Below are positions 2,018 through 9,426 of a DNA stretch of 9,426 nt, piece after piece. The translations under genes and the position numbers were made by a program. The number at the start of each line of letters is the position of its first letter. The stretch's first letter is position 1. This stretch comes from Bacillota bacterium (GTDB taxonomy: Bacteria; Bacillota; Sulfobacillia; Symbiobacteriales; Symbiobacteriaceae). The notes under the pieces were generated by a model. It was not told the origin of the DNA, did no database searches, and saw only the letters and a list, made by a program, of their open reading frames with translations. Location: contig JAQBPS010000513.1 of assembly GCA_028287415.1 (NCBI GenBank), forward strand, positions 1 through 9,426. Direction: 5' to 3'.

Positions 2018-2122
2018 CACAGCCACGACAGTGATGTCGGCGCTCCGGTGCCCTTGCGTTTGTTCCGCTTGAATGACATGCTCCAAGCCCCCTCCATCGC
2101 TGAAGTTTGGGGCAGTCTATGC
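2018..2122 (-). pseudogene. Decayed copy of a ~105-bp repeat containing a small ORF (copy 1)
   Basis: This stretch aligns to 5982-6088 in the same orientation at roughly 80% identity by eye, with a few single-base gaps. On the minus strand both copies show a GGAGG-type ribosome binding site, the spacer GCTTGGAGC, and an ATG (here 2079) followed by a peptide containing NKRKGT. In this copy one base is missing near 2042 relative to copy 2. The frame therefore shifts after KGT and the peptide ends differently (…RGRNNLYSE), so it is probably a non-functional relic. It lies in the divergent spacer between the creatininase-family gene and niaP. A repeat (for instance a small mobile or paralogous cassette) fits as well as a pseudogene. 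Confidence 0.6.
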
Positions 2123-2133
2123 TTATTAAGCAT
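2119..2133. promoter_or_regulatory. Perfect 15-bp palindrome upstream of niaP, candidate operator
   Basis: ATGCTTA-T-TAAGCAT is a perfect 7-bp inverted repeat with a one-base centre, about 40 bases before the niaP start and overlapping the end of the repeat copy. It is the right size for a dimeric repressor site. In related Bacillota niaP is often controlled by the niacin-responsive repressor NiaR, but I cannot match this site to a known NiaR motif, so its identity is open. Confidence 0.35.
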
Positions 2134-2157
2134 GGCCGTGTCCCCGCATGCTGCGTG

Positions 2158-2165
2158 AGGAGAGG
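2158..2165 (+). promoter_or_regulatory. Ribosome binding site that sets the niaP start
   Basis: AGGAGAGG lies seven bases before the GTG at 2173. It argues for that start over the upstream in-frame ATG at 2107, which has no such site and would prepend 22 atypical residues. Confidence 0.75.
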
Positions 2166-2172
2166 AACATTC

Positions 2173-3381
2173 GTGGGTAACATATCTGCCGGTCTGCCCG
2201 GCCAACGCAAGCTGCTCTTTACCGCCGGGCTCGGCTGGCTGTTTGATGCGATGGATGTGGGACTCTTATCATTTATTTTGGCGGCCCTCGCCACGGATTG
2301 GCGACTGACCACCCAGCAGGTCGGCTGGCTGGGGAGCATCAATTCCATCGGGATGGCGGTAGGCGCCCTGCTGGCCGGTGTTCTGGCCGACCGGGTGGGC
2401 CGGAAGCCCGTCTTTCTCTTCACCTTGCTGCTCTTCAGCGTGGCAAGCGGGCTTTCCGCCATGGCCACCACCTATGCGGTCATGGCCCTTTTTCGCTTCT
2501 TTGCCGGTGTGGGGGTGGGCGGCGAGCTGCCCGTCGCTTCCACGCTTGTGGCGGAGAGTGTGCCGGCCAGGGAACGCGGACGGATCGTGGTGCTGCTCGA
2601 AAGCTTCTGGGCCGGCGGCTGGATTTTGGCGGCGGTGGCCGGGTACTACCTGATCCCCGCCTACGGCTGGCGATCGGCGTTCCTGGTGGGGGCGATACCC
2701 GCGCTCTACGCGGTCTACCTGCGCGTGCAGCTGCCGGATTCTCCCCGCACACCGGTCCCGGCGGCCCGCACGAAGCGCTCCGTCTTTGCAAACATGGCCG
2801 CCGTATGGTCCCGTGAATATGTGCGCCCAACGCTGATGCTCTGGGTGCTTTGGTTCTGTGTCGGCTTCTCCTATTACGGCATCTTCCTCTGGTTGCCGAG
2901 TGTCTTGCTGTTCAAGGGGTTTGGGCTGATCAAGAGCTTTCAATACGTCTTGATCATGACCCTGGCGCAGCTGCCGGGGTACTTCAGCGCAGCCTACCTG
3001 ATCGAGCGGGTGGGGCGCAAATTCGTGCTCGTCACCTACCTGACCCTGACGGCAGTCAGCGCCTATTTCTTCGGCAACGCCACCGGTCTGACGACGCTGC
3101 TGATCGCCGGCAGCCTCCTCTCCTTCTTTAACCTCGGGGCCTGGGGCGCCCTCTATGCCTACACACCGGAAACTTACCCCGGTGCCTTCCGGGCCACTGG
3201 TGCCGGCATGGCCGCTGCCATTGGACGCATCGGCGGGGTCCTGGGGCCGCTGCTGGTGGGTTATTTGGGCAAAGGCAGGGTCGGGTTGATCTTTAACCTC
3301 TTTTTTATCATCATCATGATTGGTGCCATTGCCGTCCTGCTGCTGGGCCGGGAGACAAAGGCAGAGGAACTGCTCGATTGA
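2173..3381 (+). CDS. niaP: Niacin (nicotinate/nicotinamide) transporter, MFS family
   Basis: This 402-aa inner-membrane protein is predicted to take up niacin for NAD synthesis. It shows the 12-helix major facilitator pattern: the FDAMDVG signature at residues 24-30 in helix 1, motif A (GVLADRVGRKP, 70-80) between helices 2 and 3, and RFFAGVGVGGELPVAST in helix 4. It also has LPGYFSAAYLIERVGRK after the central loop and LGAWGALYAYTPETYP near the C-terminus. From memory these stretches are very close to Bacillus subtilis NiaP (YceI) along the whole length, which is why I name it; other MFS subfamilies with FDAMD (aromatic acid, sugar acid carriers) are the alternative. The GTG start at 2173 is chosen for its ribosome binding site. 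The gene stands alone, with no NAD-synthesis genes beside it in this window. Confidence 0.85.
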   Translation: MGNISAGLPGQRKLLFTAGLGWLFDAMDVGLLSFILAALATDWRLTTQQVGWLGSINSIGMAVGALLAGVLADRVGRKPVFLFTLLLFSVASGLSAMATTYAVMALFRFFAGVGVGGELPVASTLVAESVPARERGRIVVLLESFWAGGWILAAVAGYYLIPAYGWRSAFLVGAIPALYAVYLRVQLPDSPRTPVPAARTKRSVFANMAAVWSREYVRPTLMLWVLWFCVGFSYYGIFLWLPSVLLFKGFGLIKSFQYVLIMTLAQLPGYFSAAYLIERVGRKFVLVTYLTLTAVSAYFFGNATGLTTLLIAGSLLSFFNLGAWGALYAYTPETYPGAFRATGAGMAAAIGRIGGVLGPLLVGYLGKGRVGLIFNLFFIIIMIGAIAVLLLGRETKAEELLD

Positions 3382-3695: not shown

Positions 3696-3724
3696 GGACG
3701 CCTCCGCACATGTCGGAGGCGTCC
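3696..3724 (-). terminator. Hairpin downstream of spoVR, probable operon terminator
   Basis: Perfect 11-bp arms GGACGCCTCCG and CGGAGGCGTCC flank a 7-nt loop about ten bases past the spoVR stop. The stem is very stable, but on the minus strand it is followed only by TTGCG, so the U tract is poor. On the + strand CTCTTT follows, so it may also stop transcripts coming from niaP. Confidence 0.65.
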
Positions 3725-3732
3725 GCTCTTTG

Positions 3733-4345
3733 CTAAGTCACCTTCCGCTGTACCTGATCCCCGTCGCACGAGAGCACCACGTTCTGGTCCCCCTGCTTTG
3801 TCTCGAGGTGCACCTGCCGGCCCCAGAGCTGGTAGACATAGTGCAGCGTGCGCTCCGCGTAGGGCAGGTCGAGGTCCTGACCATCGTACTGATGCTGAAG
3901 GTACAGCTCCCGCTTGCCCCCGTAGTCGCCATCAACCACAACGATATAGGGCTGTCCGAAGTTGGTCATCGCCTCGCAGATCGTCTCCCGAACGCGCTCC
4001 CAGGCCTTGTCGGTGATCTTCCAGTCGCCTTCGTCCAGCTTGTAGACGAACAGGTCCAGGTCATGGCAGAGTTCCTCCGTCAGATACGAACGGATAAACG
4101 ACGCATCGTTCTCCATCTCCCGCACCTCGAAGATCTTCTCCCGCCCCAGGCGACGCTCGATGTCCTCGAAGATCTTGAGGCCCACATAGTAGGGGTTGAG
4201 CCGCCTGCGGCCCGGGGTGCAGACGCCGCTGTGCAGCCTGCCAAACTCGATGAACTCAGCGTCCGTCAGGTTGATCTCCCGCATGATCCGGTTGTGCCAG
4301 AACGAGGCCCAGCCCTCGTTCATGATCTTGGTCTGCATCTGCGGG
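3733..4345 (-). CDS. spoVR: SpoVR-family protein, C-terminal part of an interrupted gene
   Basis: These ~204 codons are the C-terminal ~45% of SpoVR, a cytoplasmic sporulation protein linked to spore cortex formation in Bacillus; its biochemical activity is unsettled. The segment begins inside the att core with PQMQ and continues TKIMNEGWASFWHNRIM, a hallmark of the family, then HSGVCTPGRRRLNPYYVGLK and VVDGDYGGKRELYLQH. The frame stays open a further 62 bases into the inserted element (to 4407), but that piece is element DNA with no family similarity. No ribosome binding site or plausible start precedes it, so this half is not expected to be translated while the element is present. The N-terminal half is at 8193-9017, and deleting one 3,914-bp unit between the direct repeats joins the two in frame. 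The TAG stop is at 3733-3735. Confidence 0.9.
4332..4345 (+). repeat. attL core, 14-bp direct repeat TCTGCATCTGCGGG
   Basis: Identical to 8246-8259. Left of it is spoVR coding sequence (TKIMNEGW on the minus strand); right of it is element DNA. On the minus strand the core encodes the end of a Pro-Gln-Met-Gln stretch, so crossover anywhere within it leaves the spoVR codons unchanged. Confidence 0.9.
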
Positions 4346-4346
4346 T

Positions 4347-4375
4347 TAATAAGCACTACACAGCGATCGTACAAT
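4347..4375 (+). promoter_or_regulatory. Candidate sigma-E-like promoter of the recombinase
   Basis: TAATAAG (4347-4353) and CGTACAAT (4368-4375) are separated by 14 bases. The Bacillus sigma-E consensus is approximately KMATATT, 14-15 bases, CATACAnT, so both boxes match in part (central ATA; TACAAT). TACAAT alone also suits a sigma-A -10 element, but no TTGACA-like -35 stands 17 bases upstream. The predicted transcript start would be only a few bases before the ribosome binding site, which weakens the call. The site lies wholly inside the element, two bases from the att core. Confidence 0.35.
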
Positions 4376-4383
4376 GAGGTCAC

Positions 4384-4390
4384 GAGGTGA
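4384..4390 (+). promoter_or_regulatory. Ribosome binding site of the serine recombinase
   Basis: GAGGTGA lies six bases before the GTG at 4397 and supports that start. Confidence 0.75.
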
Positions 4391-4396
4391 CGGCGC

Positions 4397-5854
4397 GTGA
4401 ACGACAATCACTACAACAATCACAACGTGACTGCGGCATTATATATTCGGTGGAGCACAGACGACCAGGGCACAGGAACCACTCTCGATGTGCAGAGGGA
4501 CGGTTGCCTGAAATGGGCCGGCGATCGCGGCTTGACCGTGGACCCAGCGTTCATCTTCGTGGATGAGGGTGTGTCGGGTGCCAAGGAACACCGTCCTGCG
4601 CTTGACCGCATGAACCGTCTAATCCAACAGGGAACGGTCAACCTCGTAATCGTGTATAAGCTTGACCGGCTTGCCCGTTCACAGTATGTCATGTTTAAAC
4701 TGGTCGAAAAGGACTGGCATAAAAAGGCCAGCATCGCTTCTGTCATGGAAGCTGCGATCGACACGACTACGACTCATGGCAGAGCGGCCTTTGGCATGTC
4801 AGCCTTGTTCGCATCAACGGAAAGGGACATGATACGCGACCGCACCTTGTCCGGCAAACGTAAACGTGCCAGCGAAGGCCGGAATCCTGGTCTCCGTCCG
4901 TCCTACGGCTATGACGTTGTCGATAAGCGGTTCGTCATCCTGGAGCATGAGGCCACCCTCGTTCGCCGCATCTTCGATGAGTACGTCAACAACGGTCGCA
5001 CTGGCGGACAAATCGCACGGCTGCTGAACGACTCCGGCATTCGCACTAAAAAGGGCGGGCCGTGGCACATCTCCGCTGTGCAGCGCGTCCTCAAAAACCC
5101 CGGCTACAAGGGAACGCTCATCTACCGTGACATTATTGCTGAACACGCCTTCCCGATCATCGTGGAGCCGTCAATCTGGGCACAGGCACAGGGCGTCCGC
5201 AACCAGAAGGCGAAGCTCCATCCCCGACGCCTGGCAGCGGATTCGCCATACATCCTTTCGGGCCGGCTGACTTGCGCCAAGTGCGGGCGCCCGATGAACG
5301 GCCGGGTATCCAGGAACGGCAAAGCCGCGAATCGGTACTATGCCTGTGCGGGCTACAGCCAGTTTCGCGACTGCGACTGTCTCACAGTGCGTCAGGATAA
5401 GCTGGAGGACGCGGTGGTCCGCAGCCTTCTCCCCTTGCTGGATGAAGCTGAACTTGGCCGGCGCATTGCAGCACGTACTGGCGTGGCCCTGGCGTTGCTT
5501 GGGCAAGAGGTGACTGGCATGGAAGCCCGTAAGCGTGAGTTGGCGCAGGAACTGACCCGGGTGCGCCAAGATTACCGCCGTGCCAAGATCGATGCCGATA
5601 CGTTTAATGCGCTTCGTACAGCGATCGAAGCCGATCAGGGAACCGTCGAGCGCAGTCTGGCGGGCAAAAAGACGAACCTGCTGGTTGCTCAGACAGATGC
5701 CAAAGTCGGCGATGAGGTCCGGCAGGCCGTTAACCTACTCCGAGCCTGGGAGGGTCTCTCCTATGCACAGCGAAAGCAGGTCATCCATCTGCTAACCGAG
5801 CGGATTGTCTGGGACTACCACGCCCAACAGTTAACAGTCCAGAGTGCAGTTTGA
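4397..5854 (+). CDS. Large serine recombinase (site-specific integrase/excisionase)
   Basis: This 485-aa protein cuts and rejoins DNA at att sites through a 5'-phosphoserine intermediate. The N-terminal resolvase domain (~12-155) has YIRWSTDDQ with catalytic Ser20, DEGVSGAKEHRPALDRM (56-72), YKLDRLAR (87-94) and ERDMIRDRT (142-150). The recombinase domain (~165-265) includes GGQIARLLNDSGIRT and NPGYKGTLIYRD. A zinc ribbon follows (Cys293, Cys296, Cys317, and Cys326 or Cys328). The region ~350-450 is charged and helical, fitting the coiled coil that governs synapsis. Domain order and length are complete for the family, with no break visible. It sits 51 bases inside attL and reads into the element, opposite to spoVR, and ends at a hairpin facing a convergent small ORF. 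SpoIVCA and SprA are the functional comparison; orthology to either is not claimed. Confidence 0.95.
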   Translation: MNDNHYNNHNVTAALYIRWSTDDQGTGTTLDVQRDGCLKWAGDRGLTVDPAFIFVDEGVSGAKEHRPALDRMNRLIQQGTVNLVIVYKLDRLARSQYVMFKLVEKDWHKKASIASVMEAAIDTTTTHGRAAFGMSALFASTERDMIRDRTLSGKRKRASEGRNPGLRPSYGYDVVDKRFVILEHEATLVRRIFDEYVNNGRTGGQIARLLNDSGIRTKKGGPWHISAVQRVLKNPGYKGTLIYRDIIAEHAFPIIVEPSIWAQAQGVRNQKAKLHPRRLAADSPYILSGRLTCAKCGRPMNGRVSRNGKAANRYYACAGYSQFRDCDCLTVRQDKLEDAVVRSLLPLLDEAELGRRIAARTGVALALLGQEVTGMEARKRELAQELTRVRQDYRRAKIDADTFNALRTAIEADQGTVERSLAGKKTNLLVAQTDAKVGDEVRQAVNLLRAWEGLSYAQRKQVIHLLTERIVWDYHAQQLTVQSAV

Positions 5855-5868
5855 CCCGCTGCACGGAA

Positions 5869-5903
5869 AAGCCGGGCTCCCTGATCAAGAGAGTACCCGG
5901 CTT
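5869..5903. terminator. Bidirectional terminator between the recombinase and the leftward genes
   Basis: Arms AAGCCGGG (5869-5876) and CCCGGCTT (5896-5903) enclose a 19-nt loop. On the + strand CGTTCATT follows, 14 bases beyond the recombinase stop. On the minus strand the stem runs into TTTTCC, six bases after the 44-aa ORF stop, so it should end both convergent transcripts. Confidence 0.75.
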
Positions 5904-5909
5904 CGTTCA

Positions 5910-6044
5910 TTATGCGATTTTGCTTGCCGCCAAGATTTGATAGACATGATCCAGCACGTCACAATTCGGGGCTGTCGGACGCACAACCACCACAGTGATG
6001 TCGGCGGTTCTGGTGCCCTTGCGCTTGTTCCCATTTGCTGACAT
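5910..6044 (-). CDS. 44-aa basic small protein, unknown function (copy 2 of repeat)
   Basis: I do not recognise this family. The ORF opens MSANGNKRKGT, a basic lysine/arginine-rich start, continues with a hydrophobic TADITVVVVRP stretch, and ends in a short helix-like segment (DVLDHVYQILAASKIA). There is no signal peptide, cysteine pair or membrane helix. The case for it being real is a very good GGAGGAGG ribosome binding site eight bases before the ATG, a terminator right behind the TAA, and a related, frameshifted copy at 2018-2122 with the same ribosome binding site, spacer and NKRKGT segment. It is convergent with the recombinase and lies 78 bases downstream of the last pilin-like gene, so it could share that transcript. 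Size and charge are compatible with a recombination directionality factor such as SprB, but nothing in the sequence proves it. Confidence 0.6.
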   Translation of the reverse strand: MSANGNKRKGTRTADITVVVVRPTAPNCDVLDHVYQILAASKIA

Positions 6045-6088
6045 GCTCCAAGCCTCCTCCACTCTTGGAGTGCTGGTGCAGTCTATGC
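5982..6088 (-). repeat. ~107-bp repeat, copy 2 (matches 2018-2122)
   Basis: Direct repeat of the copy upstream of niaP, roughly 80% identical by eye. The conserved blocks are CAGTGATGTCGGCG, GTGCCCTTGCG, TGACATGCTCCAAGCC and GCAGTCTATGC. It spans the first two-thirds of the 44-aa ORF and its upstream region. The minus-strand motif GCATAGACTGC, about 30 bases before the ribosome binding site in both copies, may be a shared regulatory element. Confidence 0.75.
6053..6060 (-). promoter_or_regulatory. Ribosome binding site of the 44-aa ORF
   Basis: GGAGGAGG on the minus strand, eight bases before the ATG at 6044; the corresponding GGAGGGGG is retained in the relic copy. Confidence 0.7.
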
Positions 6089-6122
6089 GGGAGTCGCCAT
6101 CTGAGCAACTGCTATTCGCCGC

Positions 6123-6659
6123 TCAAGTCTCCACGAAACCCGAGAAGCCGTGAACACGAATGAGCCGTCCGATTGACCCAACCTGGCATATCTCCGCGCC
6201 GTTAGCATCCTTGGCCACAATGCAAACCCGAATCTCGGTTGTGCTCCCGAGGAATTGACCCGTTCGGTCAAACACCAGGGTTGCTACGGGAGCGCCACCT
6301 GCCGCCGGCAGGAGGCCGAGGCCTCCGTCGAGATCCACTTCGCGTTGCGTGGTCCAGCCGCCGGCACACGCGGCGCCCGGGGCGCTAACCGTGAGGGGAC
6401 AGGACTCCAACAAGTAGCTGTGGAATACTTGCGACCCCGCAATCGGATTGGGCACGAATTGAATGCGCCACTGTTCGTACCGGCCGATAGCGTTTTGCCG
6501 CGACAAAGAGACGCTGTCCGCCATGGCCGACGCTGCTCTCGACATGCGACTGCTCATGAGCAGGTGAACACTACTGAGCGTAGCGATACCGCTGAGGAGT
6601 GCGATCAGGGCGACAACTACTACCAGTTCGATAAGGGTCAGCCCATTTTCGTCCCGCAT
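6123..6659 (-). CDS. FimT/GspH-like type IV pseudopilin
   Basis: This 178-aa protein has a short charged leader MRDENG, a prepilin peptidase cleavage site G|LTLIE with Glu at +5 of the mature chain, and a ~20-residue hydrophobic helix (VVVVALIALLSGIATL). A soluble domain of ~150 residues follows. The segment MADSVSLSRQNAIGRYEQWRI and the later VFDRTGQFLGSTTEIRVC resemble GspH/FimT minor pilins, which sit at the tip or initiate assembly of a pilus or type II-like pseudopilus. The ATG at 6659 is supported by GGAAGGGGGAG six bases upstream (6666-6676). It is the fourth and last pilin-like gene of the leftward operon, 23 bases after the PilX-like stop, with no terminator directly behind it. There is no assembly ATPase or prepilin peptidase in the window, so it must use machinery encoded elsewhere. 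Confidence 0.85.
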   Translation of the reverse strand: MRDENGLTLIELVVVVALIALLSGIATLSSVHLLMSSRMSRAASAMADSVSLSRQNAIGRYEQWRIQFVPNPIAGSQVFHSYLLESCPLTVSAPGAACAGGWTTQREVDLDGGLGLLPAAGGAPVATLVFDRTGQFLGSTTEIRVCIVAKDANGAEICQVGSIGRLIRVHGFSGFVET

Positions 6660-6682
6660 GGCGAGCTCCCCCTTCCACGCTG

Positions 6683-7144
6683 CTAGGGCCTGTAGCTGGT
6701 CGTTACTGCATAATCGGGGTTCGGCTTTGGCTTCGGCCTCGCCGAAATGGTGCCGGCGACGACCCGCTTGCCTGCTGTGGCGCCCGTTCCTGCCGTACCG
6801 GTGGACACCACCGCATAACTCTGATCGCCGACCTTGCTCACCTGAATCGTGTAATGACCGGCCGGCGCGCCGCTGTCAAGCAACAGCGTCTCTGCACGGC
6901 CATCCAACGCAAGTATTGCCGTGTCGTCGCCCTGTTTGGTGAGCCGAGCCCGGACTCGGTTGAACCCAGCTTCCGCCGCGTAAAACGCAGCCTCGCTGTT
7001 CTCGCTTGTTTTCGTGACCCTGATCTCTCGTATCGAGCGTGCCGTGGTTTCGCTGGCGAACAGCAAGAACACCGCGATCGCGACCAACACCAGCACCAGC
7101 GCGTAGCCCTGCTCAGTTCGCCCTAAGGAAGCCAGTGGCTTCAA
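6683..7144 (-). CDS. PilX-like minor pilin protein
   Basis: About 153 aa. The N-terminus EQG|YALVLVLVAIAVFLLF is a prepilin-like cleavage site plus membrane helix, without the usual Glu at +5. Lacking that Glu is common in PilX- and GspK-type tip pilins. After the helix comes NSEAAFYAAEAGFNRVRARL, the AAEA signature of PilX proteins; the C-terminal tail is rich in Pro and Lys (RPKPKPNP). I place the start at TTG 7144, preceded nine bases upstream by GAGGT; this overlaps the end of the PilW-like gene by 32 bases and suggests translational coupling. The open frame extends to 7321, but the extra residues are shadow of the PilW-like gene and would put ~70 residues ahead of the leader. A role as minor pilin in the same complex is inferred. 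Confidence 0.75.
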   Translation of the reverse strand: MKPLASLGRTEQGYALVLVLVAIAVFLLFASETTARSIREIRVTKTSENSEAAFYAAEAGFNRVRARLTKQGDDTAILALDGRAETLLLDSGAPAGHYTIQVSKVGDQSYAVVSTGTAGTGATAGKRVVAGTISARPKPKPNPDYAVTTSYRP

Positions 7145-7706
7145 GGACGACCGACCTCGTTCCCGATTTGGACACCAGCTGTTTAACCAGGTGGATCTTC
7201 GCAGTGGTACGTAGTGGTGCGTCGACCGTACAACCGAACCACGTGTAATCCACCTGGTTGGGATCGCTGGGGTCAACCTTGACCAGATTCCAGCCCACGA
7301 TGTCGTCACGCTCGACTGCACCTCCCTTGACCACCCACCGATGCAGGTTGTGGGGATCGTCCGTCACATCGTGGGGACTGCCACCGATGGGCGCAGAAGC
7401 AAACCGATACATGACATATTCCGTGACTGCGGCGTTTGTGGCGATCTGGAGATACTCACTAACTTGGCAACTCACCGTTGTCGCAAAGCGGGCGTCCAAT
7501 GTAACCATGGACGCTGGCAAGCGCAACGCTTCATAAGCGTCTGTCTGCTGTTGAAGCAGGCGCTTGTTCGTCATTGTCATAAACAACAACGACGTGACCA
7601 CCAGGATCACCATGCACGTGATTGCCGCGGCGGCCAACAGCTCGGCCAGGCTCATGCCTGCCTGTGACCGCATCAGCCACCGGCCCACAGCATTACAATT
7701 TTTCAA
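7113..7706 (-). CDS. PilW-like minor pilin protein
   Basis: About 197 aa from the TTG at 7706. Leader ending RSQAG, cleavage before MSLAE (Glu at +5), then a hydrophobic helix (LLAAAAITCMVILVVTSLLF) and MTNKRLLQQQTDAYEALRL, typical of PilW/ComGF-like minor pilins. The C-terminal half is globular, with several aromatic residues and two cysteines that may pair. The TTG start overlaps the preceding PilV-like gene by 14 bases and has GGTGGCGGTG upstream. An ATG at 7673 would give the six-residue leader MRSQAG, like that of the FimT-like gene; I cannot decide between the two. It is second in the leftward operon. The pilin-class call is firm; the PilW label rests on helix context and gene order. 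Confidence 0.8.
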   Translation of the reverse strand: MKNCNAVGRWLMRSQAGMSLAELLAAAAITCMVILVVTSLLFMTMTNKRLLQQQTDAYEALRLPASMVTLDARFATTVSCQVSEYLQIATNAAVTEYVMYRFASAPIGGSPHDVTDDPHNLHRWVVKGGAVERDDIVGWNLVKVDPSDPNQVDYTWFGCTVDAPLRTTAKIHLVKQLVSKSGTRSVVLEATGFLRAN

Positions 7707-8124
7707 GCACCGCCACCACTTTCACGGGAGGAAATGGCCTCGGGCAGTTGTTGCACGACACCGTCATAGTGGCTTTGCGAAGTTGACTCTGTTCTGCAGG
7801 GTAGTCATTCGCAGTTGCGGGCGTATACGCACTAATGGTCCAGCCAAGCGTGAACGAGAACTGCCCCACGTCAACCACCTTGGAGTCCGATTTAGGCCAG
7901 AAAGTCGTGCGGTAGGCCTCGTGTCCCAGTTCCTCGATCTTGCTGCTGGCGAGGTTGATCGCAATTTGCCGCTGGAAGGGCGCTGCTCCCCGGATACTGG
8001 CGGTAAAGTCAAGCATCGGTACTGCCACAGCGGACAATAGAGCCACGGCGACAAGGACCTCGACGAGACTCACCCCGTCGCAAGATACAAGCATACGGCG
8101 GAACCAAGAATGCCCGCTGCTCAA
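7693..8124 (-). CDS. PilV-like minor pilin protein, first gene of the pilin operon
   Basis: About 143 aa from TTG 8124. Cleavage site CDG|VSLVE with Glu at +5, then hydrophobic VLVAVALLSAVAVPML and a globular domain ending KVVAVLEKL. The VSLVEVLVAVALLS segment is the classic PilV/GspI N-terminus. Two cysteines (CNNC) lie near the C-terminus. The frame is open up to 8196, but the -35 and -10 boxes at 8168-8196 lie inside that stretch, so the start must be downstream. TTG 8124 has GGGGGTG six bases upstream; ATG 8094 (seven-residue leader) lacks a ribosome binding site but cannot be excluded. It heads a co-directional PilV-PilW-PilX-FimT set, the usual minor-pilin arrangement. Confidence 0.75.
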   Translation of the reverse strand: MSSGHSWFRRMLVSCDGVSLVEVLVAVALLSAVAVPMLDFTASIRGAAPFQRQIAINLASSKIEELGHEAYRTTFWPKSDSKVVDVGQFSFTLGWTISAYTPATANDYPAEQSQLRKATMTVSCNNCPRPFPPVKVVAVLEKL

Positions 8125-8167
8125 ACTCCGCACCCCCAACGCGGACCTGTGTTCGCTATGTATGTAA

Positions 8168-8196
8168 ATTATCTCCAGTACATGAATAAATGTCAA
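8168..8196 (-). promoter_or_regulatory. Near-consensus sigma-A promoter for the pilin operon
   Basis: The minus strand reads TTGACA (8196-8191), 17 bases, GATAAT (8173-8168): a perfect -35 and a -10 with one mismatch to TATAAT at optimal spacing. The start of transcription would fall near 8161, giving a ~37-base leader before TTG 8124. The promoter is about 50 bases inside attR and belongs to the element. The TGA closing the truncated spoVR frame lies within the -35 box. Confidence 0.8.
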
Positions 8197-9017
8197 GTGG
8201 CGATAATGTGTATATTTGGTCCGGAAGGTGCTATGTACCCGTTGATCTGCATCTGCGGGACGAAATAAAGGCTCTCGGCCCGCACGATGGAGAGGACATC
8301 ACGCTGCCAGTCATCCAGGTTGTCGGCGTGCGTCATCAGGAAGTGGAGCAGGTCCTTCTCGGGCTCGGGCGGCACCCGCCGGCGGGCGGGCGGACGGGCC
8401 TCGCCCTTGAGGGGGCGCCCGGTGGCAAGGCTGGGGCTGGGGCCAGTGCCGGGGAACAGGTCGCCGTAGGCGTCCTCCCCGCTTCCGCCGTCGTGTTCTC
8501 TGTGTGTGCGCTCCCGGCGTGGGTACGGATCGATGTGGTCCGAAATGGCGAGTGCGGCGTCGAGGAAGCGCTCCACCGCCAGGTTACCCTCATCGATGCC
8601 GTACTGGCGGATGCGCTGGGCATTCTGCGAGACGGACTCCACCATTTGCCGGTTGGTCGGCTCGAACCAGACGTTGTGCTTGAAGAAGTCCGTGTGGCCG
8701 AACACGTGGGCGACGACGAACTTGTTATGCAGCAGGGAGTTGGTATCCAGGAGAAAGGCATAGCTCGGGTTGGCGTTGATCACCAGCTCGTAGATCTTGC
8801 TGAGGCCGTAATCGTAAGAGGCCTTCATCGTGTAGTAGGCCTTGCCGTGGGTCCAGTGTGAGAACCGGCCTGGCAGCAAGTAAGCCCCGAACTCGTACAG
8901 AATCGTGGCAGGCACGATTTCGAAGTGCGTGGGGAACGGGTCGAGTCCCATCGCGTGCGCCTGATCCCAGATCATCCCGATCGCTGCCTCCAGCCGCGGC
9001 AGGTCGAGGTCATCCAA
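8193..9017 (-). CDS. spoVR: SpoVR-family protein, N-terminal part of an interrupted gene
   Basis: The first ~258 codons are genuine SpoVR: MGLDPFPTHFEIVP, YEFGAYLLPGRFSHW, SKIYELVINANPSYAFL, then VVAHVFGHTDFFKHN with its conserved histidines, and SIVRAESLYFVPQMQ at the insertion point. Beyond the att core the frame continues for about 17 element-encoded residues to the TGA at 8193, giving a 274-aa chimera if translated. The start is TTG 9017, seven bases after GGGGAGGT; it overlaps the yhbH stop by eight bases, which implies translational coupling. Rejoined to 3733-4345 the protein would have 456 residues, close to the ~468 of Bacillus SpoVR. In Bacillus, yhbH and spoVR are sigma-E (mother cell) genes. 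No terminator separates this half from the downstream, co-directional pilin genes. Confidence 0.92.
   Translation of the reverse strand: MDDLDLPRLEAAIGMIWDQAHAMGLDPFPTHFEIVPATILYEFGAYLLPGRFSHWTHGKAYYTMKASYDYGLSKIYELVINANPSYAFLLDTNSLLHNKFVVAHVFGHTDFFKHNVWFEPTNRQMVESVSQNAQRIRQYGIDEGNLAVERFLDAALAISDHIDPYPRRERTHREHDGGSGEDAYGDLFPGTGPSPSLATGRPLKGEARPPARRRVPPEPEKDLLHFLMTHADNLDDWQRDVLSIVRAESLYFVPQMQINGYIAPSGPNIHIIAT
8246..8259 (+). repeat. attR core, 14-bp direct repeat TCTGCATCTGCGGG
   Basis: Identical to 4332-4345. Right of it is spoVR coding sequence (minus strand SLYFVPQM); left of it is element DNA. Confidence 0.9.
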
Positions 9018-9426
9018 TCGGCACACCTCCCCGGCTGAACCACTTCTGGAGGGCGGGGTAGACGTCTTTCTTCTCAGCAATGGTGACGATGACAAACTTG
9101 GGGTCCCTCACCTCGGTAAACGCACCCATGAGCGAGCTGGTGTAGCCGCCGTCCCGGATCTCGCCGTAGCCGAACAGGTTGGAGACGCTGAGCAGCTTCT
9201 GCACCAGGTCCAGGCAGACCTTGTTGTCGCTGTCGCTCCAGTTGTCCCCGTCGGAGAAATGGAACGGGTAGATATTCCAGCGCTCAGGGTCGTAGCGCTC
9301 ATTGATGATGTCCCAGGACAGGCTGTAGGCACTGGAAACCTTGGTGCCGCCACTCTCTGCCAGATGGAAGAAAGTTTCCTCATCCACCTCCTGCGCTTCA
9401 CTGTGGTGGGTGATGAACACGATCTC
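9010..9426 (-). CDS. yhbH: YhbH-family (DUF444) protein, C-terminal part (N-terminus outside window)
   Basis: These ~138 codons are the C-terminal third of the YhbH/YeaH family, von Willebrand A-like proteins that act with the PrkA kinase and SpoVR/YcgB. The frame is open to the right edge. Recognisable segments are EIVFITHHSEAQEVDEETFF, ESGGTKVSSAYSL, YDPERWNIYPFHFSDGDNWS and a C-terminus ending WFSRGGVPIG. The ESGGT and HFSDGDNW stretches are diagnostic of the family. In Bacillus, yhbH is expressed in the mother cell under sigma-E. Here it directly precedes spoVR with an eight-base overlap, so the two form one operon; a prkA gene would be expected to the right of the window. GTG 9420 is internal and not the start. 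Confidence 0.92.
   Translation of the reverse strand, partial: EIVFITHHSEAQEVDEETFFHLAESGGTKVSSAYSLSWDIINERYDPERWNIYPFHFSDGDNWSDSDNKVCLDLVQKLLSVSNLFGYGEIRDGGYTSSLMGAFTEVRDPKFVIVTIAEKKDVYPALQKWFSRGGVPIG
9025..9032 (-). promoter_or_regulatory. Ribosome binding site that sets the spoVR TTG start
   Basis: GGGGAGGT on the minus strand, inside the last codons of yhbH and seven bases before TTG 9017. The in-frame GTG at 9026 overlaps this site and the ATG at 9095 lies deep in yhbH, so both are unlikely starts. Confidence 0.75.

Follow-up and report, generated by a model that had tools for sequence, protein, structure and literature searches.

A compact element with its own serine recombinase splits spoVR in a Symbiobacteriaceae bacterium and is predicted to rebuild the gene on excision

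We analyzed a window of 9,426 bp, which is an entire contig (C68) of a draft Symbiobacteriaceae genome (G000; 822 contigs, 77.8% complete), and identified the sporulation-associated gene spoVR, split into two halves by a 3.9-kb element that encodes a serine recombinase (Table 1). Both SpoVR halves were located on the minus strand by profile search, and the N-terminal half consists of SpoVR residues up to position ~8247, followed by an element-encoded tail, INGYIAPSGPNIHIIAT, and a stop codon. The element is bounded by a perfect 14-bp direct repeat, TCTGCATCTGCGGG, the two copies of which are offset by 3,914 bp. In silico deletion of these 3,914 bp fuses SLYFVPQMQ and TKIMNEGWASF in frame, yielding a 456-codon spoVR, the product of which aligns end to end with the orthologs from the sister-genus genomes G001, G003, and G004 (73.5–73.7% identity, blastp). 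The comparison with relatives that had been suggested in an earlier note on this DNA, made from the sequence alone, identified an uninterrupted ortholog in 3/3 of these genomes. These data confirm the anatomy proposed in that note, a spoVR gene split by a recombinase element and rebuilt exactly upon its removal; this removal very likely proceeds by site-specific excision, catalyzed by the recombinase that the element encodes. By itself, the 14-bp repeat is not significant because the window contains another perfect 14-bp pair (3863/8998); a chance repeat is ruled out by the exact rebuilding of a conserved protein together with the same break point in independent sequences.

Table 1. Features identified at the interrupted spoVR locus (positions in the 9,426-bp window; ^, predicted prepilin cleavage site)
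Feature	Position	Strand	Evidence
spoVR 3' half	3733..4344	-	PF04293 positions 255-406 and PF24755 (SpoVR_C domain)
attR core, 14-bp direct repeat	4332..4345	none	Repeat and in silico join
Sigma-E-like promoter (putative), TAATAAG-14-CGTACAAT, just upstream of recombinase	4347..4375	+	12/15 match to the sigma-E consensus
Large serine recombinase, 485 aa	4397..5854	+	PF00239, PF07508, PF13408 (resolvase, recombinase, zinc-ribbon domains), all over cut-off
44-aa open reading frame (ORF) behind a GGAGG stretch; sole candidate directionality factor, speculative	5913..6044	-	Sequence
fimT/GspH-like minor prepilin (ENG^LTLIE)	6123..6659	-	N_methyl 28.6 bits, over cut-off; TIGR02532 over cut-off
pilX/GspK-like minor prepilin (EQG^YALVL, no Glu5)	6683..7144	-	GspK NF037980 E 7.7e-5 and PilX_N E 0.0076, both under cut-off
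pilW/GspJ-like minor prepilin (QAG^MSLAE)	7113..7706	-	N_methyl 18.4 bits (cut-off 21.2); prepilin motif, operon position
pilV/GspI-like minor prepilin (MLVSCDG^VSLVE)	7693..8094	-	N_methyl 20.5 bits (cut-off 21.2); TIGR02532 17.7 bits (cut-off 16.3)
Sigma-70-like promoter (putative), TTGACA-17-GATAAT (11/12), inside element before pilV, reads towards pilin genes	8168..8196	-	Consensus match alone
spoVR 5' half, TTG start	8193..9017	-	PF04293 positions 3-259; start aligned with G003 spoVR start
attL core, 14-bp direct repeat	8246..8259	none	Repeat and in silico join
yhbH (DUF444) 3' part, cut by contig end; upstream neighbor of spoVR	9010..9426	-	PF04285 E 2e-46

SpoIVA is encoded in 5/5 family genomes (G000 and 4/4 others), and therefore the host very likely sporulates. 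The same genome contains a second, intact SpoVR on contig C445, with its own prkA and yhbH. This protein is 50% identical to the joined SpoVR, and the adjacent yhbH is 86% identical to the yhbH beside a spoVR copy on contig C209 of genome G002; given these two values, we take the C445 and C209 copies to be counterparts and paralogs of the interrupted gene. Hence, a second intact spoVR, which the earlier note had named as a finding that would speak against its proposal, is indeed present, but it is a paralog with its own neighbors rather than an ortholog. The interrupted copy is most similar to the gene of the three sister-genus genomes, each of which also carries a second SpoVR (44–46% identity), and its relative in G002 (72%) begins at a contig end, 27 residues past the T of TKIM. 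In G003 (contig C48; L226 6649-7327), a second, degenerate copy of spoVR that lacks the middle part is located 3.6 kb downstream of the intact gene.

The presence of the intact paralog makes it doubtful that the interrupted spoVR is essential, and it would also fit a dead gene, in which the insertion is permanent and the halves decay while the copy with its own prkA and yhbH covers the function. However, there are no stops or frameshifts in either half, and the recombinase is complete. Furthermore, comparison of both halves with the three sister orthologs gives a dN of 0.16–0.20 versus a dS of 0.66–0.91, that is, a ratio of 0.20–0.27, compared to 0.14–0.20 between the uninterrupted orthologs of G003 and G004. 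Both halves are under constraint, though most of the divergence may predate the insertion, and we regard a dead spoVR as quite improbable.

The recombinase gene, the only one of its kind in the element, starts 51 bp inside attR, and its product has three recombinase-type domains scoring over the cut-offs and an intact catalytic-type motif, RWST, read in the sequence. Together with the SpoIVA genes of the family, this bears out the assignment to serine-recombinase intervening elements in a lineage with sporulation genes. The element is not nearly empty, as the earlier note had it: four prepilin-like ORFs, which that note overlooked, run in the spoVR direction, closely spaced, with the first three overlapping. 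The cleavage motif with Glu5 was read directly in the fimT-, pilV-, and pilW-like ORFs, and the absence of Glu5 from the pilX-like ORF presumably fits the pilX/GspK family. Prepilin models scored over the cut-off for the fimT- and pilV-like ORFs only; the other two were assigned by motif and gene order, and the pilW-like ORF had no NCBIfam match. Between positions 3700 and 8300, we found five sigma-70-like sites of the kind that precedes the pilV-like ORF, versus 1.3 expected. The element had also been described as free of phage and conjugation genes. The first part of this description stood, in that a PHROGs scan of six ORFs gave no clear match besides the integrase (phrog_95, E 1.4e-105), with weak matches of the fimT-like ORF to pilin and to families of unknown function; for the second part, a general Pfam scan matched no conjugation family in any ORF, but conjugation was not searched for specifically.

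The fimT-like protein was the only one of the four pilins used as a query, in a search that reaches only proteins with short exact words in common, and it returned just two relatives besides itself (85% and 83%), on contigs of 987 and 2,429 bp. Neither contig matches in length any contig of the recombinase clade described below, and a cargo common to the whole element family thus finds no support. Loci of the type IV pilus type occur elsewhere: PilB- and PilC-like ORFs (named by eye) adjoin prepilin genes on contig C405 of the host genome and on contigs C90 and C149 of G002. Outside the element, a creatininase-like ORF (1230-1934) and an MFS transporter (2107-3381), also named by eye, adjoin spoVR in the window and were not detected around spoVR in the relatives used for comparison. 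A 106-bp stretch at 2017-2122 is 81% identical, with a frameshift, to the small-ORF region 5981-6090 inside the element, and no third copy was detected in the genome.

To identify related elements, the 7,997 recombinase candidates with the most words in common with the query were scored, giving 256 matches, of which the best 120 are listed. Among these, 24 recombinases besides that of the window form a tight clade with 58–85% identity, the next relative being 35% identical. A search with the C-terminal half of SpoVR, the length limit of which excludes full-length SpoVR, produced 1,054 matches; upstream of the TK..NEGW motif, the best 120 comprise 98 with native SpoVR sequence, nine with a foreign N-terminus (window included), 10 that are too short, and three without the motif. 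In all nine, the foreign N-terminus is fused at Q^TKI(M/I)NEGW, the same codon as in the window, and these C-halves, which come from divergent sequences, stay open to their ends. Because all nine agree only from the Q codon on, we locate the crossover close to the CAGA end of the core. The foreign N-termini have Ile five residues before the Q (7/9), in four cases as Ile-Asn, as would be expected if they shared a conserved attP arm (GTGCTTATTAA in the window). Separately, three of the 120 listed C-halves (P0123, P0129, and P0136) have a foreign-looking N-terminus up to VAHVFGHTDFF, a possible second, upstream insertion site in spoVR.

Among the matches listed, 4/24 clade recombinases are located on contigs equal in bp (394154, 207386, 12605, and 4901) to those with truncated C-halves, so that with the window included the pairing covers 5/25 clade members. 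As a control, such equality was found for 2/95 listed non-clade recombinases, one on a whole chromosome of 4,308,746 bp and one at 6,262 bp, where a JGI recombinase coincides with a Pyrinomonadaceae SpoVR. The C-half linked at 12,605 bp (P0135) begins at an internal Met past the site, with its own junction outside it. These sequences also bear on the explanation that the split spoVR is an assembly artefact, namely, a contig chimera in a draft genome assembled from a metagenome, which the fragmentation of that genome into 822 contigs at 77.8% completeness and the short length of the contig that makes up the window might suggest. However, in independent sequences, one of them on a 394-kb contig, the C-half is fused at this very codon to foreign sequence, and there is a clade recombinase on a contig equal in bp to the latter. 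A chimera is ruled out by these independent contigs cut at one codon, and we consider such an artefact scarcely credible.

Other sources yielded no further members of the clade: none was found in named genomes (best 80 of 314 confirmed loci; best 36%), among viral contigs (best 80 of 399; best 35%), or, at E <= 1e-100 with at most 10 candidates scored per genome, in the 153 other genomes of the class. In the Geobacillus phages whose recombinases are the nearest among phages (31% and 28%), no spoVR-like coding motif was found in the 9.4-kb stretches compared.

We then asked how interruption is distributed on a tree of SpoVR C-halves built from 31 sequences (22 of the 120 listed matches and nine genome sequences), with separate groups for the six rows that begin at the site and for the one that begins at a contig end. 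The nine interrupted rows require six changes, at least three of which are forced by well-supported branches, compared to 8.0 on average with shuffled labels; 32/500 shuffles were as low as six, indicating at most weak clustering of interruption. In addition, the similarities of recombinase and SpoVR do not track each other between linked pairs, as judged without a formal congruence test: against the 394-kb contig, the SpoVR of the window is 80% and its recombinase 68% identical, versus 71% and 71% against the 4,901-bp contig. The scattered interruption and the lack of tracking together suggest that insertion or loss has recurred at one codon, rather than that one insertion was domesticated, contrary to the domesticated element that the earlier note had suggested, and, with the same reservation on congruence, the trees do not support a single ancient insertion inherited vertically. 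The evidence favors a recurrent mobile element family rather than one domesticated switch, and such elements probably land in spoVR regularly in bacteria likely belonging to the same family.

The same findings are compatible with an ordinary serine-integrase mobile element, for which spoVR would be simply a conserved attachment site and excision would be rare, random, and unlinked to sporulation, with the paralog sufficing for the host. Apart from the scatter on the tree (six changes, at least three forced) and the independent similarities of recombinase and SpoVR, this explanation is in line with the intact C445 copy, with the phage-type integrase, and with a sigma-E-like site that is within the chance number per window. 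It does not readily account for both spoVR halves being intact and constrained, or for the C-halves with foreign N-termini staying open to their ends in divergent sequences; moreover, for genes of this kind, excision of intervening elements during sporulation has been published (PMC4191935, PMC5595907). We consider this explanation possible but rather unlikely.

A different spoVR interruption was detected in another family of the class. A SpoVR search of 154 class genomes gave a match in at least 77, and one of these, G090 (L249 4211-4942 and 2718-4214 on contig C13; L257 9555-10163 on contig C174), has a second split spoVR, the N-half of which runs ...RTKIMN/ITWCGRTG (slash, cut). A serine recombinase on the opposite strand, 29% identical to that of the window over 353 aa, ends ~22 bp from the junction. 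The C-half (...VT/NEGWATLW) is on a separate contig, with XRE, ImmA-like, and Cas3-like ORFs (by eye) on the side before it, which may or may not belong to the element. This gene is cut at an Asn codon, four codons past the junction between Q and T in the window, with three bases (AAC) common to both sides, and probably represents a second, larger spoVR-intervening element. In the host genome itself (contig C585; L232 4280-5086), two tandem serine recombinases lie beside a 268-aa ORF that is 54% identical over 257 aa to a 293-aa ORF of G002, after which its 3' end diverges; this ORF (TadC-like by eye) is perhaps another gene interrupted by a recombinase element.

Taken as a whole, we consider it rather probable that the window contains an element inserted by a serine recombinase at one spoVR codon and excised again, probably in the mother cell during sporulation, so that the gene is rebuilt. 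Under this scenario, the recombinase would insert the 3.9-kb DNA at one fixed codon, acting between attP, with a spoVR-like core and element arms, and attB, the PQMQT codons of spoVR. Excision would require a directionality factor, perhaps the 44-aa ORF, and would be driven in the mother cell by the sigma-E-like promoter; the element could be lost there at no cost, and timing to sporulation is plausible. With the pilin-like genes under a putative vegetative-type promoter of their own, integration would mean expression of minor pilins for the type IV pilus of the host, and excision would mean expression of the whole SpoVR. The more far-reaching version, in which spoVR of Symbiobacteriaceae is a standing pad for a dedicated integrase clade that enters one of its codons repeatedly and the element swaps a complete set of minor pilins, when integrated, for SpoVR, when excised in the mother cell, is tentative and, in our judgment, doubtful.

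Several observations weigh against the preferred scenario of insertion and excision. The intact paralog implies that rejoining may not matter, and the excised form, the attP circle, and the expression states are predictions from the sequence. The sigma-E-like site is the only one on either strand of the window with at least 12/15 matches to what we take to be the sigma-E consensus. Block-shuffled windows contain 1.0 such site on average, and therefore its number is no excess and only its location speaks for it; shuffles of the 62 bases before the recombinase gave a site in 12/2000. Because the site is no more frequent than by chance per window and the same place also scores 9/12 as a sigma-70 promoter, it is a weak hint, and, being the only one, it leaves the developmental regulation suggested in the earlier note unproven. 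No directionality factor emerged either: in the 153 other class genomes, the best match to the 44-aa ORF had an E of 0.03 and no relative was convincing, which speaks against a conserved factor; the assignment is speculative. The attP arm palindrome, centered at the C-A step near the CAGA end of the core, is weak (14/25, reached by 105/2000 shuffles). As for the recurrence, P0138, with 5/9 native residues kept, and P0168, which is 57% identical and has a foreign N-terminus of just eight residues, are the weakest cases among the nine foreign-N C-halves, and contigs of equal length are indirect evidence of linkage between recombinase and C-half. The 20/24 clade members that match no listed C-half, including 7/10 on contigs >10 kb, suggest that some elements of the clade may sit elsewhere. 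Finally, the dN/dS of the spoVR halves mostly reflects the time before insertion.

The kind of element described here is known, as the earlier note, which could not exclude that spoVR insertions had been listed elsewhere, rightly suspected. spoVR is listed among the interrupted genes in PMC6957869, and in Geobacillus thermoglucosidasius C56-YS93 this gene is interrupted by the vrin element (Abe et al. 2013, as cited in PMC4191935 and PMC6957869). The same gene is interrupted in a spore former in both cases, but vrin is described as carrying phage-related genes (PMC4191935), whereas the window element carries minor-pilin-like genes and no phage gene that we found beyond the integrase. The skin element (sigK) and SP-beta (spsM) resemble the window element in using a serine recombinase, a short att core, and in-frame rebuilding of a sporulation gene; they are prophages or remnants for which excision during sporulation and directionality factors are reported, whereas excision of the window element is predicted. 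Like gin, located in gerE of Bacillus cereus ATCC10987 (PMC5595907), the window element has no phage-related genes, but gin spans 28.6 kb and has three serine recombinases and the factor GirX, compared to 3.9 kb, one recombinase, and a putative pilin operon here. The prophage-like yin, in yabG of Clostridium botulinum (PMC10747680), likewise has a 14-bp end repeat and a recombinase, and is excised as a circle; it differs in target gene and host. Non-phage elements and other gene targets are thus known from gin and yin (PMC5595907, PMC10747680).

The window element shares with the known intervening elements of sporulation genes (skin, vfbin, vrin, SP-beta, gin, yin) an interrupted sporulation-associated gene, a recombinase of its own, and an end repeat with restoration of the frame. 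It differs from the prophage-like ones (skin, vrin, yin) in the lack of detected phage genes beyond the integrase, and from the gin type, in which the absence of phage genes is combined with several serine recombinases, in having one recombinase. In the titles and opening parts of abstracts covered, which leave most subscription journals aside, we found neither an element in spoVR of Symbiobacteriaceae nor any intervening element with pilin genes. What appears to be new is the host family, a compact cargo that is pilin-like and not viral, and the evidence that a dedicated recombinase clade has interrupted the same codon recurrently.

To conclude, the sporulation intervening elements that we found described come from Bacilli and Clostridia and are mostly prophages, whereas the one identified here belongs to a little-studied family of spore formers, in which a dedicated integrase clade appears to have entered the same codon of one sporulation gene repeatedly, here with a cargo that is tiny and non-viral. 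With this system, one can test directly whether mother-cell genes are favored as attachment sites because an insertion in them is free of cost; the system also provides a set of recombinases that have a single natural target in common. If the swap of minor pilins for SpoVR is real, a single DNA cut would exchange pilus assembly for spore formation in these bacteria.

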